NCBI GenBank assembly: GCA_030694265.1
Contig: JAUXYP010000008.1
Span: 62,001-126,000 of the forward strand
Length of the DNA: 64,000 nt
Direction: 5' to 3'
DNA from: Sulfuricurvum sp.
Lineage (GTDB): Bacteria; Campylobacterota; Campylobacteria; Campylobacterales; Sulfurimonadaceae
How positions within the stretch are numbered: position 1 is the stretch's first letter; each line of letters starts with the position of its first letter. The notes below the pieces were generated by a model. It was not told the DNA's origin. It was given only the letters and a program-made list of their open reading frames with translations, and did no database searches. Of the stretch, positions 20,172-55,278 are shown in pieces. The position numbers were made by a program, and so were the translations under genes.

Positions 20172-21536
20172 ATGACAGAACCTATCACACCTGAGTTACA
20201 AAAATTTTACGACATCTTTGATGGCGTTGATCAGAGTAAAGTTTCGGAATTCAAGGATTTTCTAGAAACGAATGCAGTTAATTTTAACCTCTTTAAAGAG
20301 GGTAATTTTATTGAACGTTCCTTCCCTTTTGATATGATCCCCCGTATCATCCCCAAAAAAGAGTTTGATCATTTGCAAGCAGGGATTGTTCAGCGGGTTC
20401 GTGCCCTTAATGCCTTTTTGAACGATATTTATACCGATCAAAAGATTGTAGCCGATGGTATCGTCCCCAAAGAATACATTGATTCAGCTACAGGGTATTT
20501 ACCTAGCTTTCAAGGGATTATTCCACCCAAAGGGATTAGAACCCACATCAGCGGGATTGATTTGGTAAAAGATACGGTGAGCGGCGACTGGGTAATTCTG
20601 GAAGACAACCTTCGTGTACCAAGCGGTGTGAGCTATCCTCTTACCATCCGTCGTGCTTTTCGTCATACGTACCCGGAGTTTTTTGAGCAGATGAATATTT
20701 CTAAAATTCGTCAATACGGTATGCAACTCAAAGATGCCATGGATCATGTCAATACAGGCGGCCTCAATGTTATCTTGACCCCAGGGCGCTACAACTCGGC
20801 ATTTTATGAGCACAGCTATCTGGCTAGAATTACAGGAGCGGTATTGGTTAGCGGTGATGATTTAGTCGTTGAGAATGAAGTCGTTTATTTACGCAGTTAT
20901 AATGGTGAACGCCTACGTGTGGGTGCGATTTACAGACGATTGGATGACGATTTTTTAGATCCCAAAGAGTTCGATGAAGAGAGTCTTATCGGTGTACCTC
21001 GTTTGATGAGTGCGTATCGTGCGGGGAATGTTGCCATAATGAACGGTATAGGAAATGGGGTGGCCGATGACAAAGGTATCTATTATTTTGTCCCTGAAAT
21101 GATCCGTTATTATCTCAAAGAAGAACCGATTCTCGCAAATGCACCGACCTATTTACCGTATTACGAAAAAGATCGTCAGTATGTACTGGAAAATATTGAT
21201 AAACTCGTTATAAAAGATGTCGCGGAAGCGGGAGGATACGGTGTCTTGTTTGGTAATCGTTTAACCCCTGAACAGAGGGAAGAGATCATTGGCAAAATTA
21301 TTGAAAATCCACGTCGTTTTATTGCACAGGAAGTGATTGAATTTTACGACCTGCCATGTATGCTCAATGGAGGCATAGAGCCTCGAAAGGCGGATTTACG
21401 TGCGTATGTGATTTATGGGGAAGAGATTACGGTCAGTATGGGCGGATTAACCCGTTATGCGATGGAAGAGGGCAATTATTTGGTAAACTCTTCTCAAGGG
21501 GGAGGCTTTAAAGATACGTGGGTGGTAGAACTATGA
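20172..21536 (+). CDS. Circularly permuted type 2 ATP-grasp protein
   Basis: The 454-residue protein matches the circularly permuted ATP-grasp family (DUF404/DUF407 type): FPFDMIPRIIPKKEF, then DWVILEDNLRVPSGVSYPL, RRLDDDFLDP and the C-terminal DLRAYVIYGEEITVSMGGLTRYA. ATP-grasp enzymes ligate a carboxylate to an amine or thiol; in this family the predicted reaction is peptide-bond formation with unknown substrates. It is the first gene of a four-gene operon, its TGA overlapping the alpha-E start. Most of its C-terminal domain is present but the protein is slightly shorter than the usual 470-490 residues. No promoter is certain; the 99-base gap upstream holds an imperfect CCTAA/TTAGG repeat. 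Confidence 0.9.
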   Translation: MTEPITPELQKFYDIFDGVDQSKVSEFKDFLETNAVNFNLFKEGNFIERSFPFDMIPRIIPKKEFDHLQAGIVQRVRALNAFLNDIYTDQKIVADGIVPKEYIDSATGYLPSFQGIIPPKGIRTHISGIDLVKDTVSGDWVILEDNLRVPSGVSYPLTIRRAFRHTYPEFFEQMNISKIRQYGMQLKDAMDHVNTGGLNVILTPGRYNSAFYEHSYLARITGAVLVSGDDLVVENEVVYLRSYNGERLRVGAIYRRLDDDFLDPKEFDEESLIGVPRLMSAYRAGNVAIMNGIGNGVADDKGIYYFVPEMIRYYLKEEPILANAPTYLPYYEKDRQYVLENIDKLVIKDVAEAGGYGVLFGNRLTPEQREEIIGKIIENPRRFIAQEVIEFYDLPCMLNGGIEPRKADLRAYVIYGEEITVSMGGLTRYAMEEGNYLVNSSQGGGFKDTWVVEL

Positions 21537-22237
21537 TGGATACAGCAATTACCGTTAATGCAGCACGACGGCTTTATTGGAAAGGGCGTTATTTGCAGCG
21601 TGCTCAGACCATGCTTAAAGAACTGGTGATAGGATACGACAACGTCATTGACCGTGATATTGATTACGGTCGGTACCACTATGCAAAATTAGACATAGAG
21701 ATTGATTATGGGGATGCCCACGATTTCCTGCGTCAGGGCGTTTATGGCAATCATGGGAGTTCCATTGCCTCTATGATTCTGATGGCCAGAGAAAATGCAA
21801 TAGAAACACGTAACCTTTTGGATGAACGAGGATTCGCACGATTGAATTTAATCCATAGCCGTATTTTAAGTGAATGCGGAAAAGTGGTTACGCCTAGCAT
21901 GTTGGAAGATTTTATTGATGATATCTCTTTTATTTTAGGTATTTTTTCTTCAGAGTTAGGACGTACAAAAGCCTATAATTTTGTGCGCTTAGGGCAATAC
22001 GTTGAACGATTTGATCTTATTTTACGACTCTATGATGGATTTGATTATGTAAATTCTGAATTGGATGCGATGAATACCATTGCAAAACGGCTTAATCGTA
22101 ATTATCAATTCAGTAAAATTTTCACATCCGATTTACAGAGAGCACTCGCTATTGTGAACGGGGTTATTGATAGAGTGATCGAAGAAAAGGCGTGCATTTT
22201 GGAATTTTCCGAAAAAGATGTGCAAACGCAAGGGTGA
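21533..22237 (+). CDS. Alpha-E domain protein (DUF403)
   Basis: A 234-residue all-helical protein of the alpha-E family: N-terminal NAARRLYWKGRYLQRAQ, the internal LGIFSSELGRTKAYNFVRLGQYVERFDLILRLYD segment and a C-terminal helix. Alpha-E proteins are almost always encoded beside circularly permuted ATP-grasp proteins, as here, and are thought to work with them in a peptide-synthesis or modification system, though no chemistry has been assigned to this family to my knowledge. The start ATG overlaps the previous stop (ATGATG, either first or second codon). The next gene begins two bases after its TGA. The usual transglutaminase-like partner is not adjacent. Confidence 0.88.
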   Translation: MMDTAITVNAARRLYWKGRYLQRAQTMLKELVIGYDNVIDRDIDYGRYHYAKLDIEIDYGDAHDFLRQGVYGNHGSSIASMILMARENAIETRNLLDERGFARLNLIHSRILSECGKVVTPSMLEDFIDDISFILGIFSSELGRTKAYNFVRLGQYVERFDLILRLYDGFDYVNSELDAMNTIAKRLNRNYQFSKIFTSDLQRALAIVNGVIDRVIEEKACILEFSEKDVQTQG

Positions 22238-22239
22238 GT

Positions 22240-23178
22240 ATGGGTAACATAGAAGAAGTATTGACGATTGAACTTCCAGTAGGGGAAAATTTCCGAATTC
22301 AAAGATGCCGTTACGCCCCTACACAAGGGCAATCGACGAAACGGATCTCCGTAGTCAGCGGTATTCATGGAGACGAGCTTGAGGGTCAGTATGTTTGCTT
22401 TTTATTAGGACAATGGTTGCGAGAGCATCCTGATACGATCAAAGGAACCATTGATATTTATCCGGCAATTAACAGTTTGGGAATCGACAGTATTACCCGT
22501 TCCGTCCCTTTTTATGATGTTGATTTGAATCGAACGTTTCCGGGGAGTAAAAATGATTTTCTTCCAGCACAAATAGCCCATGGGGTCGTTAATCTCATGA
22601 GAGGCAGTGATTTCGCGATCGATATACACTCCAGTAATGTCTTTTTACGTGAGATTCCTCAGGTACGTATTGCAAAATCCCAAGAAGATGTTCTTGTCCC
22701 TTTGGCAAATTTACTGAACATTGATTTTGTCTGGGTACATGATGCGGTGACGGTTTTGGAATCAACTTTTGCCCATGCGATGAATACGATAGGGACTAAA
22801 ACATTGGTAGTTGAAATGGGCGTCGGAATGCGTTTGGGCAAGGCGTATGGTCACCAATTACTGGATGGATTGCTCAACCTTATGGCACACGAGGGAATAT
22901 TGGACATTGAACCGTTAAAAGTACGTTTTCCAATCCAATCCCACGTGGGTGAAGTAGCTTATCTGAATGCTTCGTGTCCAGGATTGTTTGTCCCCGTCAT
23001 TGATCATTGTCAAGTTATCGAAAAAGGTTCGGTTGTCGGTCATATCGTGAGTGCATTGAGTGGTGAAGTCTTGGATGAAGTGATTGCTCCGATAGCAGGA
23101 ATTCTCTTTACGATTAGAGCCTATCCGATTGTGTATGAGGGCTCATTACTTGGACGAATTTTTGGAGAAAAACAATGA
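22240..23178 (+). CDS. M14/AstE-ASPA-family zinc deacylase or carboxypeptidase
   Basis: A 312-residue protein of the succinylglutamate desuccinylase/aspartoacylase family. The zinc site is intact: GIHGDELEG (His43, Glu46), DIHSS (third ligand His), DVDLNRTFPG (substrate-binding Arg), and VVEMGVG (catalytic Glu). A C-terminal barrel-like domain with GEVLDEVIAPIAGILFTI follows. It hydrolyses an amide between an acyl group and an amino acid or peptide; the substrate is unknown. ATG 22240 sits two bases after the alpha-E stop; a longer frame from 22192 overlaps that gene and is unlikely. The next gene is a paralogue overlapping by four bases. Confidence 0.88.
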   Translation: MGNIEEVLTIELPVGENFRIQRCRYAPTQGQSTKRISVVSGIHGDELEGQYVCFLLGQWLREHPDTIKGTIDIYPAINSLGIDSITRSVPFYDVDLNRTFPGSKNDFLPAQIAHGVVNLMRGSDFAIDIHSSNVFLREIPQVRIAKSQEDVLVPLANLLNIDFVWVHDAVTVLESTFAHAMNTIGTKTLVVEMGVGMRLGKAYGHQLLDGLLNLMAHEGILDIEPLKVRFPIQSHVGEVAYLNASCPGLFVPVIDHCQVIEKGSVVGHIVSALSGEVLDEVIAPIAGILFTIRAYPIVYEGSLLGRIFGEKQ

Positions 23179-24137
23179 AGCGATTTGACATAGTGACGCT
23201 TGAATCACCTAATCGGGCACCTTTACGAATCGAAGGTTTTTTATTTGGTTCAGAAAATACCCAAGGGCCTTCAGTTGCCATTGTCGGTGCTATGAGTGGA
23301 GATCATATCAATCAGCTTTATGTAGCATCGCAGTTTGTTGAATATTTGCGTACCAAAGAAGAAGAGGGGATTATTATCGGCCGTATCCTTGTGATTCCTG
23401 CGGTTAATGCGTATGCTCTTAATATGGGTGAAAAAAACTGGCCGCTGGATAAAACGGATCTCAATATGATGTTCCCAGGATACGCCCAAGGTGAAACAAC
23501 ACAGCGCATTGCATCACGCTTGTTTGACACACTCAAAGGGTATGATTATGGGATTATTTTGGAAGGTCGCCGTGATCAGGGGATGTGCCTACCGTATGTG
23601 AAATTGGTTCAAAGCGGTTACGAAGATTTGGAATGTGTGAAAGACTTGGGCTTGGGTTTTATCCATTATCGCCCGCACGACCCTGTTGAAACGGCGATGC
23701 TTCAATATAACTGGCAATTGTGGGAAACGAAAGCATTCTCGATTGTTTTTGGAAAAAATGGGGCAATAGATCAGAGTGTTAGCAACGAGGTACATACGGC
23801 AATTGTACGATTTCTTTCCAAACGTGAAATGTTAAACATTCCTGTTTTTGAGGGACGAAAGAGCAATATAGTAGATCCAAACCGTATCACCTTGGTCAAA
23901 GCATCGCGTGCAGGTATTCTTATCTCAAAAGTAACGTGTGGGACGCATGTCCAAAAGGGAGAAGTTCTTGGTAAAATAATAGATGCCTTGAGCGGTGAAA
24001 GACTTGAAAAAATAATTTCACCCTGCGAGGGAATTGTGACGTGTCAGTATTCCCATCCTCTCATCTTCCAAAACTCTATTGTATTTAGGATTGCATCGGT
24101 AGAGTTGTGCTGCCATCTAGAGACAAAGAAAAAATAA
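23175..24137 (+). CDS. M14-like paralogue lacking zinc ligands (predicted pseudoenzyme)
   Basis: A 320-residue protein aligned with the preceding deacylase end to end, including VAIVGAMSGDHINQ, KTDLNMMFPGY and the C-terminal SGERLEKIISPCEGIV barrel. At the zinc site H-G-D-E has become S41-G-D-H44, the DIHSS ligand His is replaced (IILEGRR), Arg of DLNR is Met, and the catalytic Glu segment VVEMGVG is absent. So catalysis by the usual mechanism is not expected; a regulatory or substrate-binding partner of the upstream enzyme is the simplest inference. Start overlaps the previous stop (ATGA). The family assignment is good and the function is inferred. Confidence 0.8.
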   Translation: MKRFDIVTLESPNRAPLRIEGFLFGSENTQGPSVAIVGAMSGDHINQLYVASQFVEYLRTKEEEGIIIGRILVIPAVNAYALNMGEKNWPLDKTDLNMMFPGYAQGETTQRIASRLFDTLKGYDYGIILEGRRDQGMCLPYVKLVQSGYEDLECVKDLGLGFIHYRPHDPVETAMLQYNWQLWETKAFSIVFGKNGAIDQSVSNEVHTAIVRFLSKREMLNIPVFEGRKSNIVDPNRITLVKASRAGILISKVTCGTHVQKGEVLGKIIDALSGERLEKIISPCEGIVTCQYSHPLIFQNSIVFRIASVELCCHLETKKK

Positions 24138-39107: not shown

Positions 39108-41534
39108 GTGCGAATTGTGATTGTCGGCGGCGGGATATCTGCGGTCTACCTTGCCAATACCATACTGAAAAAATCCCCAACCTCCGAGGTACTTATTGTA
39201 TCAGATGAGACACATCCTCCTTATGATCGTATTCACTTGTGTGCCCTTGTCAATAAAAGCCAATGTGTTGAATCCATTACCCTCGAGCTTCATCCAAAAG
39301 TACGTCTGGAACTCAATCAAACCATTCTCAGTATCGACGGGACGGCAAAACGCATTCTAAGCTCGCATGCCGTATTTGCCTATGATAAGCTGATCATCGC
39401 CACCGGATCGGAACCTAAAACGCTCTTCAATATTGAGGGGATTAGTAATGCTTCAACGTTTCGTAGTGAAAAAGACAGCGAAAAAATAGCGGACGGAATC
39501 GTGGGTAAAAATGTGGTCCTTGTTGGGGTGGGACCGATTGGTCTGGAATTGCTCGATACGTTGATGCAAAGCCCATCGGCCAAATCCATCACGTTGCTGG
39601 CTCGAAAAGAATACCTTTACTCGCAGGATTTGAGCCGAGAAGCAATTGCATTACTGCGGGGGATTTTTGAACAGGATCCCCGTATACGTATCGAATTTAA
39701 TGATGAAATAATCGATAAAACGATCTCTGACAACACCATTAAGAGTATACAGACGCGTCATAGGATCATTGAAGACCCGTTTCTGATTTTTGGTGTGGGC
39801 ATTGATCCACGGATTGATTTTGCACGCCAAGCACTCGAATGTGACAAAGGGATTTTGGTAGACGATAATATGCGTACTTCCAATCTCGATATTTACTGTG
39901 TGGGGGAAGCGGCACAGCTACGTAGCAGCGGTTTTATAGCAGGACGTGTCAAAGAGTGTACCTTGCAAGCAGAGGTGGCCGTTGATACGCTATTGGGATT
40001 AGAAACCAAACAGTTTGTTCAGGAAGTATCCATAGATGGACTCAAAGTGGGATCATTCCTCTTTGCCGATGTCAGTTCCCCCAGTTATAACCCAAAAGAT
40101 CCTGACAATGAAACCATCTTGATCACCCATGAGAATCGGGTTGATCAGTACATCGTTAACCATGACCGTCTAAAACGCTTTATCGGGATCAACACGAATA
40201 TCGATCTGATTCACCTCAAGCGCCTTATCGAGATGGATAAGCCTATTGATGCGGCTTATTTATATTCCAATCGACTTCATAGCGGCAAAGGACGGCTTGT
40301 TTGTAGCTGTGAAAGTGTTTATGAGGCAGAACTTGTTGATATCATCAAACTCAATGCCATTACCTCTTTTGGAGGGCTGAAACCATATACTGAGGCAGGA
40401 CGGGTATGCGGACGTTGTAAACAAGACATTACGGCATTGATCGCGGCGACACCGGTGGATGCTGCGATGGCGCAACAGCTACGGGCACAAAGAGAAGCGG
40501 ATGCAAAAGAAGCCGAGATGGCACTGGTACGTGCACGGATCGAAAAGTACAATAAAATCCATCCCAAAAATCAGCTCAGTTTTGAGAATCTGGAAGAGGC
40601 AATGGAGTCTTTTGATATGGGGAGTGAGTTCAATAAATGGGTCTCGATGATTACCGCAACCATGAACTTGCATCCCGGATACGAGGAGGTCGTCAAAGAG
40701 GGGGTTTCACAGCTCAATAAAATTCCGATCATTTGGCTGGAACTCGCCGATTGCAGCGGAAATTCGGAGGGGTTTATCAAATCCTCCCATCCAAAAATAG
40801 ACGATTTGATTCTCAAATATATCTCGCTGGATTATCATGAGCTGCTAATGGCAGGTTCAGGCGATCAATCCGAAACCGTACTAGATAATATTATAAAATA
40901 TGATGCTGGAAAATACGTCCTTATCGTCGAGGGAGCAGTACCTCTTGGGCTTGATGGCAAATTTTTGCGTATCGGTACGAAGGGAGAGACGGGGCATGCG
41001 CTATTGCAGCGTGTCGCACAAAATGCTGCAGCAGTCATCGCTGTAGGATCGTGTGCGTATGATGGAGGGGTCGTTGCCGCAGCCCCTAATCCGACGGGGG
41101 CTGTAGGTGTAGCCGAAGCACTGGGGCGGACAGACATCATCAATCTGCCTGGATGCCCTGTCAATCCGATAAACATCGTAGGGACGCTGCTGCATTTTAT
41201 GATGTTTGAGGAATTTCCAAAACTCGATGAAAAGAACCGTCCGATATGGGCGTACGGAGCTAGGGTACATGACAACTGTGAGCGGCGCGGTCATTTTGAT
41301 CTGGGTGAATTTGTTCTCGAATGGGGCGATGAGGGAGCCAAGAAGGGGTGGTGTTTGTTTATGATGGGATGCAAAGGGCCGTATGCGCAGATGAATTGCT
41401 CGCAGGTGAAGTTTAATGAGGGGACCAGTTGGCCTGTTCAAGCAGGTCATGGATGTTTTGCCTGCGGTGCGGGTAAAATAGCATTCGATCAATACGCCAA
41501 TCATCGGCCACTTGCCAAGGAACCTCATGAGTAA
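39108..41534 (+). CDS. Fusion: FAD-dependent oxidoreductase + BFD [2Fe-2S] + [NiFe] hydrogenase small subunit
   Basis: An 808-residue protein in three parts. Residues 1 to about 300 are a pyridine-nucleotide-disulfide-type FAD domain (MRIVIVGGGISAVYLA; LIIATGSEPKT; GVGPIGLELLD; VGEA). About residues 400-450 are a BFD-like [2Fe-2S] domain: LVCSC, then VCGRCKQD. After a charged linker, residues about 540-808 are a hydrogenase small subunit (GSCAYDGG, LPGCPVNP, HDNCERRGHF, GHGCFACG). Asn552 stands where a proximal-cluster Cys is expected. There is no Tat signal or membrane anchor, so it is cytosolic. GTG start with AAAGGGGG. First gene of an operon, overlapping the large subunit by eight bases. 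Confidence 0.92.
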   Translation: MRIVIVGGGISAVYLANTILKKSPTSEVLIVSDETHPPYDRIHLCALVNKSQCVESITLELHPKVRLELNQTILSIDGTAKRILSSHAVFAYDKLIIATGSEPKTLFNIEGISNASTFRSEKDSEKIADGIVGKNVVLVGVGPIGLELLDTLMQSPSAKSITLLARKEYLYSQDLSREAIALLRGIFEQDPRIRIEFNDEIIDKTISDNTIKSIQTRHRIIEDPFLIFGVGIDPRIDFARQALECDKGILVDDNMRTSNLDIYCVGEAAQLRSSGFIAGRVKECTLQAEVAVDTLLGLETKQFVQEVSIDGLKVGSFLFADVSSPSYNPKDPDNETILITHENRVDQYIVNHDRLKRFIGINTNIDLIHLKRLIEMDKPIDAAYLYSNRLHSGKGRLVCSCESVYEAELVDIIKLNAITSFGGLKPYTEAGRVCGRCKQDITALIAATPVDAAMAQQLRAQREADAKEAEMALVRARIEKYNKIHPKNQLSFENLEEAMESFDMGSEFNKWVSMITATMNLHPGYEEVVKEGVSQLNKIPIIWLELADCSGNSEGFIKSSHPKIDDLILKYISLDYHELLMAGSGDQSETVLDNIIKYDAGKYVLIVEGAVPLGLDGKFLRIGTKGETGHALLQRVAQNAAAVIAVGSCAYDGGVVAAAPNPTGAVGVAEALGRTDIINLPGCPVNPINIVGTLLHFMMFEEFPKLDEKNRPIWAYGARVHDNCERRGHFDLGEFVLEWGDEGAKKGWCLFMMGCKGPYAQMNCSQVKFNEGTSWPVQAGHGCFACGAGKIAFDQYANHRPLAKEPHE

Positions 41535-43221
41535 GAATAAAATAGTCATCGATCCCGTCACCCGTATCGAGGGGCATCTGCGTATCGAGGTAGAGGTCGA
41601 TGAGGATAATGTCGTCACCGAAGCATGGGCTTCGGGACAGCTGTTTCGAGGGATAGAAATCATACTCAAAGGGCGTGATCCCAGAGACGTCGGTTTGATC
41701 GCTCAGCGCATATGCGGAGTGTGTACCAACGTCCATTATCGTGCCTCGATCAGTGCGGTCGAAGACGCATACTCGATCACCATTCCGCAAAATGCTGAGA
41801 TTATCCGTAATCTCGTCACTATGGCCCTTTTTGTACAGGATCATATTATTCACTATTACCATCTCCACTCTCTTGATTTTGTGGACATTACCAGTGCGCT
41901 GGAGGCTGATTGTGCCAAAGCGGTTACGATGGCGCAACAGTATCACGAGAATCCGTATCGTAACTCTGAGGGACACTTGGAAAGCGTCAAAGAGAAGCTG
42001 GGCAGTTTTGTTAAAGCAGGGCGATTGGGACTGTTTTCAAACGGGTATTGGGGGCATGAGACCTATCGGTTTACTCCCGAAGAGAACTTGGTGCACATGA
42101 ACCATTACCTCGAAGCTCTGCGCATACAGCACGATATTTCCAAAGCAATCGCCATTTTCGCAGGGAAAACCCCCCATCCTCAAAACCTAGTCGTAGGCGG
42201 AGTGACGAGTGTTGCGGACATGCTCAATCCCCAACGGCTCAATGATTTCATGTTTATTATCAAAGAGGTGCGCGAATTTTTGGAGCGTGCGTATATCCCT
42301 GATATCAAAATGGTGGTCAAAGCGTACGCGGATTCGATTGAGCGCGGTGAGGGGCGCGGATGCGGAAATTTTTTGTGTTGCGGCGGTTACCGTTTGCCTA
42401 ACAAAGAGCAGCTTTTTGTTGGCGGTGTCATCACAGGGCATGATTTTGATGCAGTACAGGCGTTTGATCCCTCCAAGATCACGGAAGAAGCGTCACGATC
42501 ATGGTATGAAAGCAATCCTCCAAGTTCGCCGTATGACCAAGACAGCACACCATTTTATACCGATTTAAATGAAGATGGGACGCTCAAATCTGAGGGAAAA
42601 TACAGCTGGGTCAAAGCGCCGCGCTATGAGGGCAAAGTGATGGAAGTAGGCCCTGTCGCGCGTATGATCATGGGTGTTGTCAAAGAATCACCGGTGATTA
42701 AACCCTATATGGACCGTTTTATGAGCGAGAGCGGGATGAAACTGATCGATTTTTCTACCAGTGTTGGGCGTAATGCGGCGCGTGCGGTAGAAGCGCAAGT
42801 TTGCTGCGATTATCTCTTTGACTTTATGAGCGACTTGATCGAAAACATCAAATACTACGATGAAACAACCTGGACCAAGTATGTGTTTGAAGAGCTACCG
42901 ACAACGTCCAAAGGGGCTGGAATATTTGAAGTACCCAGAGGGATATTGAGCCATTTTGTCAAAATACAAGAGGGTAAAGTTTCCAATTATCAAGTAGTCG
43001 CACCCACAACGTGGAATGCATCGCCCAAAGACGCAACAGGTCAGCGAGGTCCCTATGAAGAGGCACTTATCGGGATCAAACTCTCCGATCCATCACGTCC
43101 TTTAGAAGTATTACGGGTTGTCCACTCGTTTGACCCGTGTCTGGCCTGTGCGGTTCATGTGATTGATACCAAGGGCCGTGAACTCTCACACTACAAAATA
43201 CAGACCGTTTGTTCTGTATAG
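41527..43221 (+). CDS. [NiFe] hydrogenase large subunit of the cytoplasmic (fusion) enzyme
   Basis: The 564-residue catalytic subunit carries VTRIEGHLRIEVEV at the start, the L1 nickel motif RICGVCTNVHY and the L2 motif DPCLACAVHV near the C terminus. Four cysteines of L1 and L2 bind the Ni-Fe(CN)2CO centre. The C-terminal stretch after the His of L2 (VIDTKGRELSHYK...) would be removed by the protease encoded next, so this is a protease-processed type. ATG 41527 has AAGGA before it and overlaps the fusion gene stop; a longer frame from 41512 lacks a good site. A cysteine-rich loop (GCGNFLCCGGY) occurs mid-protein. Confidence 0.95.
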   Translation: MSKNKIVIDPVTRIEGHLRIEVEVDEDNVVTEAWASGQLFRGIEIILKGRDPRDVGLIAQRICGVCTNVHYRASISAVEDAYSITIPQNAEIIRNLVTMALFVQDHIIHYYHLHSLDFVDITSALEADCAKAVTMAQQYHENPYRNSEGHLESVKEKLGSFVKAGRLGLFSNGYWGHETYRFTPEENLVHMNHYLEALRIQHDISKAIAIFAGKTPHPQNLVVGGVTSVADMLNPQRLNDFMFIIKEVREFLERAYIPDIKMVVKAYADSIERGEGRGCGNFLCCGGYRLPNKEQLFVGGVITGHDFDAVQAFDPSKITEEASRSWYESNPPSSPYDQDSTPFYTDLNEDGTLKSEGKYSWVKAPRYEGKVMEVGPVARMIMGVVKESPVIKPYMDRFMSESGMKLIDFSTSVGRNAARAVEAQVCCDYLFDFMSDLIENIKYYDETTWTKYVFEELPTTSKGAGIFEVPRGILSHFVKIQEGKVSNYQVVAPTTWNASPKDATGQRGPYEEALIGIKLSDPSRPLEVLRVVHSFDPCLACAVHVIDTKGRELSHYKIQTVCSV

Positions 43222-43229
43222 ACGAATCT

Positions 43230-43769
43230 ATGAGCAGTATCGCAGTCATCGGGGTAGGAAATATCCTGTTTACGGATGATGGGATAGGGGTCTATGCGAC
43301 CAAGTATCTGGAAATGAACTACGGTTTTGAACCCTCAATCGATATCATTGACGGGGGGACGCTGGGATTTAATCTGATGCGCTATTTTAGCGACTACGAC
43401 CACGTCATCATTCTCGATACCCTTTCGATCGACGAAGAAGCAGGATCAATCTATCATCTCCCCTCAGAGGTACTTCTAGGGCTTGGAGATACGCGTAAAA
43501 CGGTTCATGAGGTTGAAGTGACCCAAATGATCGAGTTGGCGTCTTTGATGGATGTGAGGGCTAGTATCAGCGTTCTAGGGATCATCCCCTCTGACATCCA
43601 AACCGTTGCTATGGATTTGAGTCCAATAGCCAAAGAACGGTTTGGGATATTTATTCAAACTCTACTAAGCGTCTTAAAAGAAGCAGGTATCACTGCAAGG
43701 CAAAAAGATCAAATGGCTCCGCTTGGTGAGATCCTAGAATCGTATCGTAATCCTAGGATTGACAGATGA
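43230..43769 (+). CDS. Hydrogenase maturation endopeptidase (HyaD/HybD family)
   Basis: A 179-residue protease. GVGNILFTDDGIGV near the N terminus, IIDGGTLGF and VHEVEV around residue 92 hold the nickel-sensing residues of HybD-type enzymes (Glu16, Asp62, His93 in E. coli). Here the Glu of G-D-E-G is Asp (TDDG), a conservative change. It should clip the C terminus of the large subunit just upstream once Ni is inserted. ATG 43230 was chosen for the N-terminal match; an in-frame start at 43209 overlaps the previous gene. It overlaps hypF by four bases. Confidence 0.92.
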   Translation: MSSIAVIGVGNILFTDDGIGVYATKYLEMNYGFEPSIDIIDGGTLGFNLMRYFSDYDHVIILDTLSIDEEAGSIYHLPSEVLLGLGDTRKTVHEVEVTQMIELASLMDVRASISVLGIIPSDIQTVAMDLSPIAKERFGIFIQTLLSVLKEAGITARQKDQMAPLGEILESYRNPRIDR

Positions 43770-46033
43770 TGCAACACTTGCGATTTGAGATCAGAGGGTT
43801 GGTGCAAGGGGTCGGATTTCGACCCTTTGTCTATAAACTGGCAAAAAAGTATCACTTGCGGGGAGTCGTTTTTAATACGGGGGATGGAGTGATTGTCGAG
43901 GTTGAGGGATCCTCTGATGAACTCAAACTTTTTAGCGTTGCGCTGAAGAGAAATCCTCCATCACTTGCTCGTATTGATACTATTGAAATTCATGAGCAAG
44001 AGGTGAAACACTTTGAGGGATTTGAAATTTTAGAAAGTCACCATCGCGCAAAAACCACCTCGATTTCTCCCGATATTGCCGTGTGTGATGCGTGTTTATC
44101 GGAGATGAAAGATCTTCATAATCGCCGTTTCGGCTATTACCTTACCAATTGTACCGAGTGCGGTCCACGATACAGTATCATTGAAACGCTCCCCTATGAC
44201 AGAGATTTAACCTCCATGAAATCATTTAAGATGTGCAATCACTGTCAAGGAGAATATGACGATCCAAGCAATCGCCGTTATCATGCCCAACCGATCAGTT
44301 GTCATGAGTGCGGTCCCGTATTAAGCATGTTTGATCGTGAACTCAACCTTATTGCTCAAGGAAGGGGCGTCATAGAAAAGGCAGCCCAATGTTTGAAAAA
44401 TGGGGAAATTGTAGCCCTCAAAGGGATCGGTGGATTTCATTTGTTGTGCGATGCTACCAATGAGCAGGCAGTTTCAACTCTCAGAATGCGCAAAAAACGT
44501 CCCCAAAAACCGTTTGCCGTGATGTTTTCTAGCATCAATCAGCTTTCGAAATATCTCTGTGCCGATGAGAAAGAATCAACATGGCTTATCTCAAAAGAGC
44601 GCCCGATTGTACTGGTTAAAAAGCGAAGTGGTACGGATGCACTATTGGCCCAAAACGTCGCGCCGGATATTGACACGATCGGGGCGATGGTTGCCTATAC
44701 CCCGATACATCATCTGCTTTTCGATTTTTTCACCTCACCATTAGTTGCCACCAGTGCAAATCGCAGTGACGAGCCGATTGTTCGTAATATTCATGAACTT
44801 AGAGATCGGTTGGGAGGCGTTGTTGATACCATCGTAGACTTTAATCGTGATATCGTCAATACGGTTGATGATTCGATACTTCAAGTGATTCAAAATCGAT
44901 CTTCAGTGCTGAGATTAGGGCGCGGATATACCCCTTTTACATTAAAACACACCATTTGCACACCACTGAAAATATTGGCAGTCGGGGGGCAGCAAAAAAA
45001 TACGATTGGATTGGCATTCGAGGATACATTGATACTAAGCCCTCACATAGGTGATCTCTATTCACTAGAGGGAATGGAGTATTTTGAGCGGACGGTAGAC
45101 ACCTTCAAACGTTTTTATGATTTTTCTCCTGATGTGATTGTATGTGACAAACATCCTGCCTATGCAACAGTACAATGGGCGAAGAATCAGGGGGTAAGCG
45201 TTATCACCGTACAGCATCATTATGCACATGCATTGGCGTGCATGGCTGAATTTGGATTGGACAGTCAAGTACTCGCATTTTGCTTTGACGGAACCGGATA
45301 TGGGGATGACGGAAACATTTGGGGCGGTGAAATTTTTATTGCCGATCCAACACACTGCGAACGGATCGGACATCTCAAAGAATTTCGTCTGCTGGGCGGT
45401 GAAAAAGCGATTAAAGAGTCTAAGAGAGTTGCGCTGGCATTACTCTTCGAGATGTATTCTTTGGCAGAGATTCGGGAATTTGATCTTCCTTTTTTAGCCC
45501 ATTTCAGCCACGAAGAGATTAACTCATATTACAAAATATGGGAAAAACGGATCAATTCACCGTTATGTTCATCTATGGGGAGGGTGTTTGATGCGATGGC
45601 TTCGTTTTGCGATATCTTACATCAGGAGTCTTACGAGGGGGAGACGGGACGTCGCTTGGAAGAGCTCTATAACCCTAAGATACAGGAGAGTTTTGACTAT
45701 ACCATTGAGAACGGTATAGTCAATTTGTCTCCTATGATTCGTGATTTCATTAGACTGCTGCATGCAAAGGAATACGCCAGAGTGGCTACAGGATTTATCA
45801 ATACCATTGTGGCAATTATGGAAGAGTTTGCAGGCTTGTATCCCGATCTTCCTATTGTTCTCAGCGGAGGGGTTTTTCAAAATAAGACCCTTTTATCTCT
45901 GGGGGTAAATCGGTTGAAAGAAAAAGGGCGCACAGTCTATTTTCAAGAGCAAACTCCCATCAATGACGGGGGGATAGCTTTGGGACAACTGTATTATGCA
46001 CATCACCATATAAGGGGTACTAATGGGGGCTGA
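43766..46033 (+). CDS. hypF: Carbamoyltransferase HypF
   Basis: The 755-residue protein has an acylphosphatase domain (RGLVQGVGFRPFVYKLA), two CxxC zinc-finger pairs (CDACLSE...CTECGP; CNHCQGE...CHECGP), a YrdC-like domain (MRKKRPQKPFAVMF) and a Kae1-like carbamoyltransferase domain with HHYAHALAC and LSGGVFQNKTLL. It makes thiocarbamate on HypE for the CN ligands of the Ni-Fe site. It is encoded with the first hydrogenase but is the only HypF in the window, so it should serve both enzymes. It overlaps neighbours by four and eleven bases. Confidence 0.97.
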   Translation: MMQHLRFEIRGLVQGVGFRPFVYKLAKKYHLRGVVFNTGDGVIVEVEGSSDELKLFSVALKRNPPSLARIDTIEIHEQEVKHFEGFEILESHHRAKTTSISPDIAVCDACLSEMKDLHNRRFGYYLTNCTECGPRYSIIETLPYDRDLTSMKSFKMCNHCQGEYDDPSNRRYHAQPISCHECGPVLSMFDRELNLIAQGRGVIEKAAQCLKNGEIVALKGIGGFHLLCDATNEQAVSTLRMRKKRPQKPFAVMFSSINQLSKYLCADEKESTWLISKERPIVLVKKRSGTDALLAQNVAPDIDTIGAMVAYTPIHHLLFDFFTSPLVATSANRSDEPIVRNIHELRDRLGGVVDTIVDFNRDIVNTVDDSILQVIQNRSSVLRLGRGYTPFTLKHTICTPLKILAVGGQQKNTIGLAFEDTLILSPHIGDLYSLEGMEYFERTVDTFKRFYDFSPDVIVCDKHPAYATVQWAKNQGVSVITVQHHYAHALACMAEFGLDSQVLAFCFDGTGYGDDGNIWGGEIFIADPTHCERIGHLKEFRLLGGEKAIKESKRVALALLFEMYSLAEIREFDLPFLAHFSHEEINSYYKIWEKRINSPLCSSMGRVFDAMASFCDILHQESYEGETGRRLEELYNPKIQESFDYTIENGIVNLSPMIRDFIRLLHAKEYARVATGFINTIVAIMEEFAGLYPDLPIVLSGGVFQNKTLLSLGVNRLKEKGRTVYFQEQTPINDGGIALGQLYYAHHHIRGTNGG

Positions 46034-46667
46034 GACAGCCAGTGTGGCGGTAATTTTTTGGTATGGTATTTTGCATGCCTTCGGGCCTGATCATTTGACG
46101 GCTATTGCCGATTTTTCGATCGGTAGAGGGGGTAAGAAAACATTTCTGAGCGTGGGCGCTTTTGCCATTGGACATGGACTGATGCTGTTTGTCTTCGCAA
46201 AAATATTAGAACATTATACGATCCCTCATGCGCTGTTGGCCTATGGTGATATGATCGCATCGAGTGTAATAATCTCGATAGGGGTCTATTTTCTCACGAT
46301 GGTCTATCAAAATAAAATCCATTTAAGTTCCCATATCCATGATAATAAAAAACACATACACGTTTGGTTTGGAGATGAACATAAGCATGAATATACCCGT
46401 ACGTCTGCCTTTGGCATGGGTGTTTTAATGGGGATCGGCGGTGTACGCGGTATGTTGGTCACACTGGGTGTTCTCCATGGTCAAGCGGTTGGGTTTACGA
46501 TGATTCTTGCTTTTGTGCTTGGGGTTATGGGAGTATTTTTTACGTTTGGATTGGTCATTCTATGGATCAATAAAGACATAATGACTAATATTAAAAATGT
46601 ACGGCGCGTTTTTACCGCAGTAGGAATTGTATCTATCCTTGCAGGCGGAAATATCCTTTTGGCATAA
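46023..46667 (+). CDS. NicO-type nickel/cobalt transporter
   Basis: A 214-residue membrane protein with about six segments. The first has HAFGPDHLTAIADF, an H-x4-DH metal motif of NicO/UreH-type transporters, and a histidine-rich loop (HIHDNKKHIHVWFGDEHKHEY) lies in the middle, as expected for a nickel binding loop. It probably supplies Ni(II) to the maturation machinery. It overlaps hypF by eleven bases and ends the first operon. An inverted repeat follows at 46675-46699. Confidence 0.88.
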   Translation: MGAETASVAVIFWYGILHAFGPDHLTAIADFSIGRGGKKTFLSVGAFAIGHGLMLFVFAKILEHYTIPHALLAYGDMIASSVIISIGVYFLTMVYQNKIHLSSHIHDNKKHIHVWFGDEHKHEYTRTSAFGMGVLMGIGGVRGMLVTLGVLHGQAVGFTMILAFVLGVMGVFFTFGLVILWINKDIMTNIKNVRRVFTAVGIVSILAGGNILLA

Positions 46668-46674
46668 GACTAGA

Positions 46675-46699
46675 CACTAATAAATAAATAATATTAGTG
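46675..46699. repeat. Inverted repeat between the two hydrogenase operons
   Basis: CACTAATA-N9-TATTAGTG, eight-base perfect arms and AT-rich loop, eight bases after the nicO stop. It can be a weak terminator (no T-run) or an operator for the following operon; a TATACA -10-like hexamer is at 46727-46732. Confidence 0.5.
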
Positions 46700-46761
46700 A
46701 TAGAATATTCAATCGGGTTAAATGGCTATACATAGATTTAAACGTTCTAATGAGGTATAAA

Positions 46762-48192
46762 ATGAAAAATGATGAATTACTGAAAAAAATAAAAGAAAAT
46801 CAGGGTCTTTCACGTCGTAATGCCCTGAAAATGATGATGCTCTCACCTGTAGCAGCATCGATTTTAGCAAGTACAGGAACTCCTGCAACAGCAAATGCCG
46901 CATCCTCGGATGCCGTAGGCCGAGTCGTTATTGTGGGTGGTGGTGCCGGTGCGTTAATGGCCCTTTCACGTTTACGCAGAGCTCTTTCCAACCCGGATAT
47001 TACCATTATTGCTCCAAACGATAAACATGTATATCAACCGGGACAGATTTTTGTTGCAGCAGGTGAATACGAACCTTCCGATATTATTTTTGATAACAGA
47101 GGCTATATTGGCAAAGATATTACCTGGATCAAAGACGAAGCCTCATCATTCGATCCGGACAATAACAAACTCACGACCAAAGGCGGCAAGGTTGTTGACT
47201 ATGATTATCTGATCGTTGCCACAGGTGTGCAGTACCATTACGAGCAAATCGAGGGTCTTACGAGTGATATGATCGGTAAAAACGGTATTTCAAGTGTCTA
47301 TCTAAGTGATTTGGCAGCAGGAACAGCCGAAGGGGGACGCATTACTAATGAGTGGTTTAAAGCACTTCATGAAGCCGCAAAAACTTCTAAACCTCGTGTT
47401 ATCTGCACTCAGCCATCAACCCCAATTAAATGTGGCGGTGGTCCTCAAAAAATTCTTTACCTCAGTGACGATTTTCTAAAGCGCGATCAATTGACGGCTA
47501 ACTTTACCTTTGCAACTGCGGGAGAAACACTTTTCAGTCTCCCCGAAATTGATGCGGCACTGCATAAGGTTCAAGAAGGATATGGCAATATCACCAACAA
47601 ATTTGGCCATGAATTGATTGCCATCGATGCACAAAATAAGATAGCGACGTTCCAGCATAAATATCAAGTTCAAGGAGAATTTGACAAAGAGCTCAAAGAA
47701 TACGACATGATTGATAAAGAAGAAAATGTCACAATGGAGTACGATTTTATCCATATCACTCCTCCTATGGCTGCAGTTGATGCCGTGGCCAATTCATTAC
47801 TCGGATGGCAAAAAGGGTCAGCAAAAGGGTGGCTGGAAGTCGATCGCGAAACACTACAGCACCGACGCTATAAAAATGTATTTGGAATTGGTGATGTATG
47901 CGGCATTCCGATTTCTAAAACAGGGGGAAGCGCGCGTCATCAAGGTCCGATTGTTGTGGGGAACTTGATCTCAGTGATGGAGAAAAAAGAGCCTGTATTG
48001 AAGTTTGATGGCTATACGGTCTGTCCTTTGAAAGTCTCTTATGGTGAGATTATTATGGCGGAGTTTAATTACGATGGTCTGGCACCATCTTTCCCTCTTG
48101 ATCCGGCACAACCGCGTTGGATATGGTGGGCATTTGATTTGTATTTGCTTCAACCGATGTATCGCTATTTGATGTTGAATGGACTGATGTAA
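46762..48192 (+). CDS. Tat-exported sulfide:quinone oxidoreductase-like flavoprotein
   Basis: A 476-residue protein. A twin-arginine signal (LSRRNALKMMMLSPVAASILAS) is followed by an FAD-binding VVIVGGGAGALMALSRL. The SQR-type IKCGGGPQKILYL segment is present, with Cys215 and Cys224; GDVCGIPISKTGGSARHQGP is at about 376-395 and Cys421 (TVCPLKVSYG) later. The C-terminal IWWAFDLYLLQPMYRYLML helix would insert into the membrane. SQR oxidises sulfide and reduces quinone. ATG 46762 follows GAGG. It is 26 bases upstream of hydA, so it heads the hydrogenase operon. Substrate is inferred. Confidence 0.85.
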   Translation: MKNDELLKKIKENQGLSRRNALKMMMLSPVAASILASTGTPATANAASSDAVGRVVIVGGGAGALMALSRLRRALSNPDITIIAPNDKHVYQPGQIFVAAGEYEPSDIIFDNRGYIGKDITWIKDEASSFDPDNNKLTTKGGKVVDYDYLIVATGVQYHYEQIEGLTSDMIGKNGISSVYLSDLAAGTAEGGRITNEWFKALHEAAKTSKPRVICTQPSTPIKCGGGPQKILYLSDDFLKRDQLTANFTFATAGETLFSLPEIDAALHKVQEGYGNITNKFGHELIAIDAQNKIATFQHKYQVQGEFDKELKEYDMIDKEENVTMEYDFIHITPPMAAVDAVANSLLGWQKGSAKGWLEVDRETLQHRRYKNVFGIGDVCGIPISKTGGSARHQGPIVVGNLISVMEKKEPVLKFDGYTVCPLKVSYGEIIMAEFNYDGLAPSFPLDPAQPRWIWWAFDLYLLQPMYRYLMLNGLM

Positions 48193-48218
48193 ATCAATAT
48201 AACTTATAGGAGAGCGCT

Positions 48219-49373
48219 ATGAACGGTTTTGATGCACTTTATGCAAAAGCCCAAGAACGTATTGCAGTTTTGTCTTCTTTACCTTCTACTAAAGAAGAAT
48301 CAGTAGAGCAGATGCTTGAAAAGCGCGGTATTGAACGCCGCGATTTTATGAAGTGGGCGGCGGCTATTACGGCCATGCTCGCTTTACCCTCACAGTTTAC
48401 ACCATTGTTTGCGCAAGCAGCCAAACTGGCAGACCGTCTTCCCCTGATTTGGCTTCATATGGCCGAATGTACAGGATGCAGTGAATCACTCATCCGTTCA
48501 GATGCTCCTACGATTGATTCTCTTATTTTTGATTACATTTCATTGGAATACCATGAAACACTCATGGCAGCAGCAGGATGGCAAGCAGAAGCTAATCTTG
48601 AAAATGCGATGAAAACTTATGCCGGGCGTTACATATTATTGGTCGAAGGTGGAGTTCCTACGGCTATGAACGGGCAATTCTTGACATTGGGAGCACAAGC
48701 CAAAACAGGGCTTAGCCTTGTCCAAGAGGCTGCGAGCAATGCGGCAGCAATATTTTCTATAGGCACGTGTGCCAGTTTTGGTGGTATTCAGGCTGCTGCA
48801 CCCAATCCGACCGGTGCAAAAGGGGTCGATAAAGTGGTCAAACAGCCGGTCATCAACGTACCAGGTTGTCCTCCAAGCGCCGAAAATATTGTGGGAACAT
48901 TGATGCATTTTCTCCTTTTTGGTACTTTGCCGGCACTGGATCTTTACAGCCGCCCGAAATGGGCATACGGTAATCGTATCCATGATCATTGTGAACGTCG
49001 CGGCCATTTTGATGCAGGTGAGTTTGTTGAGAGCTTTGGCGATGATGGTGCCAAAGATGGATGGTGTCTGTATAAGCAAGGATGTAAAGGGCCGTATACC
49101 TTTAACAACTGCTCAACCGAACGTTTTAATCAGCATACCCATTGGCCCATCGGTGCCGGACATGGGTGTATGGGGTGCAGTGAACCGAATTTTTGGGATA
49201 CTATGGGACCGCTTGAAAAGCCTTTGCAATCCCATCTTATCATGGGACTTAACTCAACGGTTGATAAAATAGGGACAACCCTCTTGACCGCAACCGTCAT
49301 CGGGATCGGTGCCCATGCCGTTGCAAGTCTGTTCATGAACAGCAAAGAAGAAAAAGAGGAAAAGGAGAGTTGA
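48219..49373 (+). CDS. hydA: Membrane-bound [NiFe] uptake hydrogenase, small subunit
   Basis: A 384-residue electron-transfer subunit. A twin-arginine motif, RRDFMKWAAAITAML, begins at residue 42, after an unusually long 41-residue leader. The proximal cluster motif ECTGCSES has both cysteines (Cys84, Cys87); GTCASFGG, VPGCPPS, HDHCERRGHF, GCKGPYTFNNC and HGCMGCSEPNFWD carry the rest. A C-terminal membrane segment (TTLLTATVIGIGAHAVASLFM, about 350-370) anchors it. It exports the large subunit by Tat piggyback. It lies with hydBCDE; type 1 periplasmic uptake hydrogenase. Confidence 0.96.
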   Translation: MNGFDALYAKAQERIAVLSSLPSTKEESVEQMLEKRGIERRDFMKWAAAITAMLALPSQFTPLFAQAAKLADRLPLIWLHMAECTGCSESLIRSDAPTIDSLIFDYISLEYHETLMAAAGWQAEANLENAMKTYAGRYILLVEGGVPTAMNGQFLTLGAQAKTGLSLVQEAASNAAAIFSIGTCASFGGIQAAAPNPTGAKGVDKVVKQPVINVPGCPPSAENIVGTLMHFLLFGTLPALDLYSRPKWAYGNRIHDHCERRGHFDAGEFVESFGDDGAKDGWCLYKQGCKGPYTFNNCSTERFNQHTHWPIGAGHGCMGCSEPNFWDTMGPLEKPLQSHLIMGLNSTVDKIGTTLLTATVIGIGAHAVASLFMNSKEEKEEKES

Positions 49374-49376
49374 AGT

Positions 49377-51077
49377 ATGGCAAATCAAAGAGTAGTCATT
49401 GACCCGATTACACGGATAGAAGGACATCTACGTATTGAAGTAGAGATTGATGAAAACAATGTCGTTCAAAAAGCCTACTCCTCTTCTACTCTGTGGCGTG
49501 GTATTGAGCTTATTCTCAAAGGAAGAGACCCACGTGATGCCGGTTTAATGGCTCAGCGTATTTGCGGTGTTTGTACCTATTCCCATTATAAAGCCGGTGT
49601 TGAAGCTGTCGAAGATGCTTTGGGTGTCGAACCGCCTTACAATGCTAAACTGGTACGATCTCTTTTAAATGAATCGCTTTATATGCATGATCATGTTGTC
49701 CATTTTTACCATCTGCATGGATTGGACTGGGTTGATATTGTTTCTGCGCTAAGTGCTGATCCCAAAAAAGCCTCTGAGCTGGCGTTCAAATACACGGATT
49801 TGCCTATTGCGACTGGAACCGATGAATTGACTGCCGTACAACAACGCGTCAAAGGATTTGTTGCTAAGGGACAGATGGGACCGTTTGCTAATGCGTATTG
49901 GGGCAATAAGACCTATAAGTTTTCGCCTGAACAAAACCTCATCGCACTTTCGCATTATCTAAAAGCTCTTGAGATTCAACGTGTAGCTGCACAGATGTTT
50001 GCTATATTTGGTGCTAAACAGCCTCATCCCCAAAGCCTCGTCGTTGGCGGAGTAACCTGTGTGCGCGATATTCTAAGTCCCACCAGATTGGTAGAATGGA
50101 AATCCAAATATGAAATCGTTAAAGATTTCATAGAACGTGCTTATTACGCTGATATTGTGATGGCGGCAGAGGCGTATGGTACAGAAGCAAGTGTTCTAGG
50201 CGGTGTCGGTGTGAAAAACTTCCTTACTGCCGATGCCTTTTTACTCAGTCATACTGAAAATCTTTTTCAAAGCGGATACATCAAAAACGGTGATATCAGT
50301 AAAGTATATGACATAGATGAGATGAAAATCGAAGAAGACGTAACGCATGCTTGGTACAAAGGGGATAAACCTTTACAGCCGTATGATGGCGTAACAGAGC
50401 AAAACTATACCGGATTCATTGATGGTGACACCGTTAACGGCAAAGCCAAAGTAATCAATCCAAAAGATAAATACACGTGGGTAAAAGCGCCACGCTATGA
50501 TAAATCTCCTATGGAAGTGGGACCTTTGGCGTGTCTGCTGGTCAACTACGCGCACGGTAATGCAAAAGTGCAAAAAGAGGTCAATGACTTTTTAAAACGA
50601 ACCGGATTACCGGTTGCCGCACTCTTTACGACGCTGGGACGTACCGCTGCGCGTATGCTGCAGACGAAGTTAATCGCTGATAATGCGATCATCACCTTTA
50701 ATACATTGGTTGAAAATATCAAAACCGATGACACTACCTATACGAAATTTGAAATAGATCCGGACAAAGAGTACAAAGGGCGTTTTATCGGTGAAGCACC
50801 ACGCGGTACTTTGAGCCACTGGGTACGTATAAAAAATGGGGTAATTGAAAATTACCAAGCTGTTGTGCCGACCACATGGAATGCAGGGCCGATGGATGCT
50901 AATGGCGAAGTTGGACCTTACGAGGCATCTCTGGTTGGATTAAAACTTGAAGACCCTACTAAACCATTGGAAGTACTTAGAGTCATTCACTCCTTTGATC
51001 CGTGCATGGCATGTTCCGTACACGTCATGGACCTCAAAGGAAAAGAGATTAGCACGTTCAAAGTCAATCCGTTATGA
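49377..51077 (+). CDS. hydB: Membrane-bound [NiFe] uptake hydrogenase, large subunit
   Basis: A 566-residue catalytic subunit. L1 motif RICGVCTYSHY and L2 DPCMACSVHV hold the four nickel-iron cysteines; VVIDPITRIEGHLRIEVEID is at the N terminus. A C-terminal tail of 15 residues after L2 would be cleaved by HydD. It lacks its own signal and is exported with HydA. It is similar along its length to the large subunit at 41527, showing that the two hydrogenases are paralogues of different types. It follows hydA by three bases and overlaps hydC by four. Confidence 0.97.
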   Translation: MANQRVVIDPITRIEGHLRIEVEIDENNVVQKAYSSSTLWRGIELILKGRDPRDAGLMAQRICGVCTYSHYKAGVEAVEDALGVEPPYNAKLVRSLLNESLYMHDHVVHFYHLHGLDWVDIVSALSADPKKASELAFKYTDLPIATGTDELTAVQQRVKGFVAKGQMGPFANAYWGNKTYKFSPEQNLIALSHYLKALEIQRVAAQMFAIFGAKQPHPQSLVVGGVTCVRDILSPTRLVEWKSKYEIVKDFIERAYYADIVMAAEAYGTEASVLGGVGVKNFLTADAFLLSHTENLFQSGYIKNGDISKVYDIDEMKIEEDVTHAWYKGDKPLQPYDGVTEQNYTGFIDGDTVNGKAKVINPKDKYTWVKAPRYDKSPMEVGPLACLLVNYAHGNAKVQKEVNDFLKRTGLPVAALFTTLGRTAARMLQTKLIADNAIITFNTLVENIKTDDTTYTKFEIDPDKEYKGRFIGEAPRGTLSHWVRIKNGVIENYQAVVPTTWNAGPMDANGEVGPYEASLVGLKLEDPTKPLEVLRVIHSFDPCMACSVHVMDLKGKEISTFKVNPL

Positions 51078-51793
51078 AAAGTAACCAGGAAAATGTCATG
51101 GACGAAACACAATCAGGCGGCATCGAACATATTTCATTTGTTTACAGCATTGCAAATCGTATTTTACACTGGATACGGGCTATTGTCATCACAGGTTTGG
51201 TGATAACGGGCTTTTACATTGCCAGTCCGTTCCTCTCATCGGGAGCATCAAGTGATGAGCTTATCTACGCACGGTGGGTCTCTTGGCATCTTGTATTTGG
51301 ATTTATTCTTATAACCGCCGGGCTATTGCGTATCTATCTCTTCTTTTTTGGACCGGACAGTAAAAGTGAGCTTAACTCTCTCAAAGATGAATTCAGCCTT
51401 AAATCGTGGATTATTCAACTTAAATCCTACTTTTTCATTGGAGAACTGCTGAAAAAAGGGATGTATGGACCCTTGCAGTTTTTATCATACACTATGATCA
51501 TGTTCTTTGTTGTTCTGGCATCGATTACGGGTCTTGTTCTCTATATTCATGTTTATCATCAGGGTATCGGAGGAATGCTGTATGATTCGATGCGTTTGGT
51601 TGAATCATGGATGGGCGGTTTGGCCAATGTCCGTTTGATTCACCATATTACGATGTGGGGATTTTTGATATTTATCCCTATCCACATCTATATGGTCATC
51701 TGGTCAGCAATTCGATTTAAACATGGTGGTGTGGATATTATGTTTACGGGATACGATTACCATCTCAAAAAGAAAGAAAATGAGGAAAAATGA
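51074..51793 (+). CDS. hydC: Hydrogenase b-type cytochrome subunit
   Basis: The 239-residue protein has four main membrane segments, with histidines suited to heme b binding: NRILHWIRA, RWVSWHLVFGF and LIHHITMWGFLIFIPIHIYM. It takes electrons from HydA and reduces menaquinone. The start ATG overlaps the hydB stop (ATGA); a second Met (codon 12) is possible. It overlaps hydD by four bases. It is a good match to the HyaC/HydC family. Confidence 0.94.
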   Translation: MKSNQENVMDETQSGGIEHISFVYSIANRILHWIRAIVITGLVITGFYIASPFLSSGASSDELIYARWVSWHLVFGFILITAGLLRIYLFFFGPDSKSELNSLKDEFSLKSWIIQLKSYFFIGELLKKGMYGPLQFLSYTMIMFFVVLASITGLVLYIHVYHQGIGGMLYDSMRLVESWMGGLANVRLIHHITMWGFLIFIPIHIYMVIWSAIRFKHGGVDIMFTGYDYHLKKKENEEK

Positions 51794-52338
51794 AGATTTT
51801 GCTTCTGGGTATCGGAAACCTCCTTTTTGGAGATGAAGGTGTCGGTGTTCATTTTATTAACTACATAGGTCAAAAGTACCGCTTTGAAGGAAAAAATAGC
51901 ATTGATATCGTCGATGGAGGAACCCTTGCTCAGAGACTTATTCCCATCATAGTAGAGTATGATCAGGTTATTATCGTCGATACGATTAATGCCTCGGGTG
52001 TGAAAGCGGGAGAAGTTTATTTTTTTGATTTTGAAGCCGTACCTGCCGGGATCGATTGGCAGGGAAGCGCGCATGAAGTGGAGATGCTGCAGACACTCAC
52101 TATGATGGACCTCTCAGGCGACCGTCCGCACACTATGATTATGGGGGTAGTTCCAACCGTGATAGAAGCAACCGAGTTTTCTCTCTCACCGGGGGTTGCT
52201 AATGCAATTGGGTTAATGGACGATACCCTGGTAAACTATCTAAATACGTTAGGCGTTGTGTCGATCAAACAAAACGATGTAACGATACAATCAGTTCTTC
52301 CTGATTCATTTCGGTCTGCTCATGCATGTAGCGTTTAA
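51790..52338 (+). CDS. hydD: Hydrogenase maturation endopeptidase
   Basis: A 182-residue HybD-type protease with the classical GIGNLLFGDEGVGV (Glu intact), IVDGGTLAQ and AHEVEML near residue 97. It cleaves the C terminus of HydB after nickel insertion. A distinct protease is coded for the cytoplasmic enzyme, which fits the known specificity of these proteases. It overlaps hydC and hydE. Confidence 0.94.
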   Translation: MKILLLGIGNLLFGDEGVGVHFINYIGQKYRFEGKNSIDIVDGGTLAQRLIPIIVEYDQVIIVDTINASGVKAGEVYFFDFEAVPAGIDWQGSAHEVEMLQTLTMMDLSGDRPHTMIMGVVPTVIEATEFSLSPGVANAIGLMDDTLVNYLNTLGVVSIKQNDVTIQSVLPDSFRSAHACSV

Positions 52339-54115: not shown

Positions 54116-54180
54116 AAAGATAGATAGATGATAAGTGGAACGGTTAACACCTTTTAAAATTTAATTTTGTAAAAATGAAA

Positions 54181-54186
54181 TATAAT
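54181..54186 (+). promoter_or_regulatory. Predicted -10 box for the hypBCDEA operon
   Basis: TATAAT preceded by TGAAA and a T-rich stretch, 30 bases before the hypB start. The 100-base gap after hydE, the largest inside the cluster, supports a separate transcription start. Confidence 0.6.
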
Positions 54187-54215
54187 CAAATACGATAGAG
54201 CCTAAAAGGAAAAAT

Positions 54216-54989: not shown

Positions 54990-54991
54990 CC

Positions 54992-55276
54992 ATGTGCCTC
55001 TCTATACCCTCAAAAATTGTTGAGATTGATGAAGACAACAATGCCACAGTAGATACGATGGGCGTACGTCGTAAAGTGAGTCTGGATCTGATGGCCGATG
55101 AGGTAGCAATTGGTGATTATGTACTGATCCATATCGGTTTTGCGATGGGGAAGATTGATGAAGAGGATGCACTGGAAAGTCTCAAAGTGTATGAAGAGAT
55201 GATTGTCGCTATGGATGAGGAAGAGTGCAAAGCGTTGATCGACCAAGATGATAATTGCCCCAATCGGACCTTGTGA
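54992..55276 (+). CDS. hypC: Hydrogenase assembly chaperone HypC
   Basis: The 94-residue protein begins with the essential MCLSIPSKIVEID (Cys2 binds the iron precursor and HypD). The DLMADEVAIGDYVLIHIGFAMGKIDEEDA segment is typical. It shuttles the Fe(CN)2CO unit from HypD to the large subunit. One HypC serves two large subunits here unless another copy lies elsewhere. It starts two bases after hypB and ends two bases before hypD. Confidence 0.97.
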   Translation: MCLSIPSKIVEIDEDNNATVDTMGVRRKVSLDLMADEVAIGDYVLIHIGFAMGKIDEEDALESLKVYEEMIVAMDEEECKALIDQDDNCPNRTL

Positions 55277-55278
55277 TA

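Follow-up and report, generated by a model that had tools for sequence, protein, structure and literature searches.

A tandem pair of AstE/AspA-family proteins in Campylobacterota, one of them a pseudoenzyme by sequence, encoded with ATP-grasp and Alpha-E proteins

Genes for ATP-grasp and Alpha-E proteins, often accompanied by genes for a transglutaminase and an Anbu peptidase, form a known operon type with a predicted role in peptide synthesis (PMC5666114; PMC3597751), and a passage in PMC5666114 credits this operon to Iyer et al. 2009. Some M14 proteins of animals and fungi are pseudopeptidases (AEBP1, CPXM1/2, domain III of carboxypeptidase D, and Ecm14; PMC11266112). In trypanosomes, an active AdoMetDC and its catalytically dead paralogue, prozyme, form a complex that has been demonstrated (PMC5201418).

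Here, we describe four genes in a 64,000-nucleotide stretch of DNA from Sulfuricurvum sp., hereafter called the window, whose closest genomes are Sulfuricurvum MAGs (90-92% identity in the last of the four proteins, M14b). The genes form a compact run on the + strand, followed by a gene on the opposite strand. The features are:

20172 to 21536, + strand: circularly permuted ATP-grasp type 2 protein, a predicted amide/peptide ligase and the first gene of the operon (Pfam PF14403, E 8.2e-141)
21533 to 22237, + strand: Alpha-E domain protein (Pfam PF04168, E 1.1e-16)
22240 to 23178, + strand: M14a, intact AstE/AspA-family metallohydrolase with H43, E46, R98, H130 and E192 (Pfam PF24827, E 2.4e-18; all five residues in 66/66 orthologues)
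23175 to 24137, + strand: M14b, paralogue of M14a that lacks the catalytic residues and has conserved pocket motifs of its own (Pfam PF24827, E 1.8e-9; residue losses; dN/dS 0.05-0.09)
23175 to 23178, + strand: ATGA overlap of the M14a stop and the M14b start (read from the sequence; overlapping frames at 70 of 72 loci, 45 of them with a four-base ATGA-type overlap)

M14a begins with the ATG at 22240, and M14b is 320 residues long. An ORF check bears out the coordinates and strand of M14b given in an earlier note on this DNA, and the stop-start overlap claimed there is present as ATGA. Elsewhere on the + strand of the window, translations point to an extended series of genes for structural and maturation proteins of [NiFe] hydrogenase (39108-57392).

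Like the operons described previously, this one has an ATP-grasp and Alpha-E core, in the order that marks the operon family, i.e. a circularly permuted ATP-grasp and then Alpha-E. It differs from them in that the M14a-M14b pair occupies the place of the transglutaminase and Anbu peptidase. No transglutaminase gene was found within the 20172-24137 operon. The two Transglut_core genes of this genome lie on a different contig, near a gene in which ATP-grasp and Alpha-E are fused. The M14 pair thus sits at the place that the peptidase has in other operons. Plasmid operons of other groups encode ATP-grasp, Alpha-E and transglutaminase, and one of these also encodes a proteasome-type protease. In one Campylobacterota lineage (locus L070), a transglutaminase gene lies between Alpha-E and M14a. 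Two more proteins are encoded beside the pair there (L070:461-5631), one long, repetitive and adhesin-like, the other short, with a related N-terminus. On contig C18 of the window's genome (377042-383281; L097, L099, L100, L105) lies a second system, in which the fused ATP-grasp/Alpha-E gene encodes 836 aa and is accompanied by genes for a transglutaminase of 308 aa and for a protein of 1138 aa that contains a transglutaminase core.

M14a and M14b both exceed the PF24827 cut-off (for M14b, 37.9 bits versus a curated threshold of 25, residues 30-214), and they align end to end over ∼306 residues (23% identity, E 1e-25). Both share the full-length fold of the AstE/AspA family (PF24827; M14-type fold; DoeB/EutE, aspartoacylase, CphZ). 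M14a also keeps the catalytic set of the family, which we take to comprise H43, E46 and H130 as zinc ligands, R98 as the arginine of DLNR, and E192 as the catalytic glutamate of VVEMG. M14b, unlike active members, lacks all five of these residues. Pairwise alignment agrees with the substitutions listed in the earlier note: H43 and E46 of M14a correspond to S41 and H44 of M14b, the DIHSS ligand H130 to E130, and R98 to M98 (DLNR to DLNM). The same note called VVEMGVG missing from M14b. The motif is indeed lost, but nothing is deleted; SIVFGKNG substitutes for it position for position, with V191 in place of E192.

We aligned 66 distinct M14a and 66 distinct M14b sequences, orthologues drawn from public Campylobacterota genomes. 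All five catalytic residues are present in every M14a orthologue, whereas 65 of the 66 M14b orthologues have none, the exception (L076) retaining E46 alone. On these numbers, the residue losses are not due to chance or sequencing error. At the DLNR arginine position, M14b has M, V, T or A in all 66 orthologues, and at the catalytic glutamate position V, I or M. Columns 41 and 44 of the alignment, which once held metal ligands, are now comparatively variable (entropy rank 255 and 269 of 309). Because 65 of 66 sequences retain no catalytic residue and positions 41 and 44 vary, it is most likely that the common ancestor of all sampled M14b proteins had already lost the metal site. By sequence, then, M14b is a pseudoenzyme of the AstE/AspA family, as had been proposed, and the protein has presumably lost its metal.

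Structure prediction for M14b (mean pLDDT 70, pTM 0.74) yields the two-domain AstE/AspA fold, including the C-terminal beta domain. The model matches known structures of the family along its full length, which bears out an earlier claim that fold and C-terminal domain are retained. It superimposes on 6twl (Z 23.2, rmsd 4.1, 278 residues) and 8ein (CphZ; Z 22.4, rmsd 5.0, 289 residues), and values for these two and 3cdx span Z 22-23, 277-289 residues and rmsd 4.1-5.0. The M14a model retrieves the same structural family. A caveat is that the active-site loops are unreliable in both models (pLDDT <50 at residues 78-109) and the pocket loops of M14b are poorly modelled; hence, pocket contacts are argued here from the alignment only.

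That alignment reveals new conserved residues in M14b. At position 130, where M14a has H, 65 of 66 orthologues carry E (L049 has K), and at position 132, S in M14a, 65 of 66 carry R. D134 is present in 65 of 66 orthologues, its counterpart in M14a being I or V, and C138, which corresponds to E in M14a, is present in all 66. Further conserved features are D92, E107 and the motifs YNW..W and WPLD.T. Conservation across the 66 sequences peaks at 91-110 and 171-190, segments that align with the substrate side of AstE/AspA enzymes, and reaches its minimum towards the C-terminus, at 201-210, 221-240 and 251-260. These patterns suggest that part of the M14b pocket has become fixed in a new form, i.e. 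repurposed rather than merely lost.

Two candidate replacements for the metal site were considered. A site rebuilt elsewhere in M14b, a possibility raised earlier, is rejected in its His-based form, as no histidine is invariant among the 66 orthologues (the best, at position 164, occurs in 59). In the window, H44 and E130 give the impression of ligands that have traded places; this idea is rejected as well, as H44 is found in just 25 of 66 orthologues.

We placed M14a and M14b in a maximum-likelihood tree together with other AstE relatives, where each forms one clade with full support and a long stem. The two clades group with each other to the exclusion of the other AstE sequences sampled (99/86), although the long branches weaken this deep join. 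L076 is the first branch among M14b proteins. The topology fits a single gene duplication of ancient date, after which one copy lost its catalytic function.

The reading we favor, with a probability of roughly 55%, is that M14a, the active hydrolase of the ATP-grasp/Alpha-E system, has in M14b an obligate partner without catalytic function, the two most likely forming a heteromer in which the pocket of M14b has been repurposed. Under this model, the ATP-grasp and Alpha-E proteins would build an amide- or isopeptide-linked product, and M14a would cleave or trim that product through its H-E-H zinc site. Coupled translation would yield M14b, which would join M14a in the heteromer. The earlier note, too, suggested a heterodimer of the two products, made in equal amounts, a reading that our results support in part. 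The former active-site pocket of M14b (E130, R132, D134, C138, D92, E107, YNW..W) may bind substrate or a small effector and thereby set the specificity or activity of M14a.

How M14a and M14b are distributed bears on this model. Using strong-match thresholds (E <1e-140 for M14a; E <1e-100 for M14b), we found the two proteins in an identical set of 43 among 397 Campylobacterota genomes, adjacent every time. M14b without M14a was not found in any of the 397. ATP-grasp and Alpha-E genes lie upstream of the pair in the loci with sufficient sequence to judge. When evolutionary distances are correlated allowing for ATP-grasp, the partial r is 0.41 for M14a and M14b and 0.01 for Alpha-E and M14b, values that come from non-independent pairs and carry no formal null. 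Co-occurrence, frame overlap, shared ancient origin and the modest excess distance correlation all fit an M14a-M14b complex; this evidence, gene order and overlap included, is also compatible with two separate proteins in one pathway. The main alternative is that M14b acts alone in the ATP-grasp/Alpha-E pathway, binding a ligand or providing a scaffold, for example by holding or presenting the growing peptide, with no stable M14a complex. Its invariant residues map, in the alignment, to the former pocket segments, and it is strictly linked in the operon to M14a and also to ATP-grasp and Alpha-E, both of which such a role would explain. However, M14b distances track those of M14a more closely than those of Alpha-E once ATP-grasp is allowed for, and no M14b without M14a was found in the 397 genomes, which makes this alternative rather unlikely in our judgment.

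In three genomes (L008, L011 and L014), ATP-grasp and Alpha-E are 88-95% identical to those of the window, but M14a and M14b only 77-88%, a pattern that joint exchange of the pair could produce; adjacency alone could also account for this. Outside Campylobacterota, no M14a-M14b pair was seen in the plasmid records searched. Of the plasmid-borne relatives of M14b inspected, two are ordinary AstE proteins, encoded beside rimK or ectoine genes. Legionella lytica plasmid pLlyPCM2298_1 (L091:3863-4888) carries a gene for a single AstE-family protein without the zinc histidines, in which HGDE is replaced by KGDE, DLHS by ELQS, and DLNR by TLEH. This gene sits outside any ATP-grasp operon, and its product is apparently a separate AstE-family pseudoenzyme.

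The rates of change in M14b bear on two other explanations. M14b is under purifying selection, with dN/dS values of 0.05-0.09 against close relatives, compared to 0.03-0.07 for M14a. Its dN is ∼1.1 to 2.1 times that of M14a, indicating faster protein-level evolution, a point against the partner model. Such a low dN/dS, together with the near-fixation of E130, D134 and C138, would also be expected of an enzyme with new chemistry on these three residues, perhaps using another metal or a thiol rather than H-E-H zinc. We consider this improbable, as M14b has no invariant His, one orthologue has K at position 130, and the family arginine and general-base glutamate are gone too. That M14b is a functionless, decaying duplicate would account for the loss of every catalytic residue but is contradicted by purifying selection and retention across the phylum, as well as by the intact frame, the adjacency in every M14a-bearing genome and the protein's own invariant motifs across genera.

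We tentatively entertain a broader idea: the rebuilt pocket of M14b (E130, R132, D134, C138, WPLD.T, YNW..W) might be a sensor, or a new active site, for the ATP-grasp/Alpha-E product. In that event, the operon could represent a system that regulates itself and both synthesizes and cleaves a peptide/amide metabolite or tag of Campylobacterota not described so far. Our literature search found no report of the product of the ATP-grasp/Alpha-E system. This system spans several phyla. The obligate combination of an active and a dead hydrolase offers a handle on its product; M14b could be used to fish out the product, because the dead copy may still bind it.

Compared with the M14 pseudopeptidases of animals and fungi, M14b similarly retains an M14 fold after loss of metal ligands or catalytic residues. 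Those proteins are eukaryotic and of the carboxypeptidase type, whereas M14b is bacterial, of the AstE/AspA type, and has lost the whole site; we also know of no case in which one of them is paired in tandem with an active copy. The trypanosome AdoMetDC-prozyme system likewise combines an active enzyme with a catalytically dead paralogue and provides a model for how M14b may act, but its fold and reaction are unrelated, and its complex is demonstrated where that of M14a and M14b is inferred. Enzyme/pseudoenzyme pairs and M14 pseudopeptidases are thus already known. A pair of this kind in the bacterial AstE/AspA family, of which our literature search found no description, appears to be new, and M14a/M14b would provide a clean bacterial example of enzyme and pseudoenzyme within that family.
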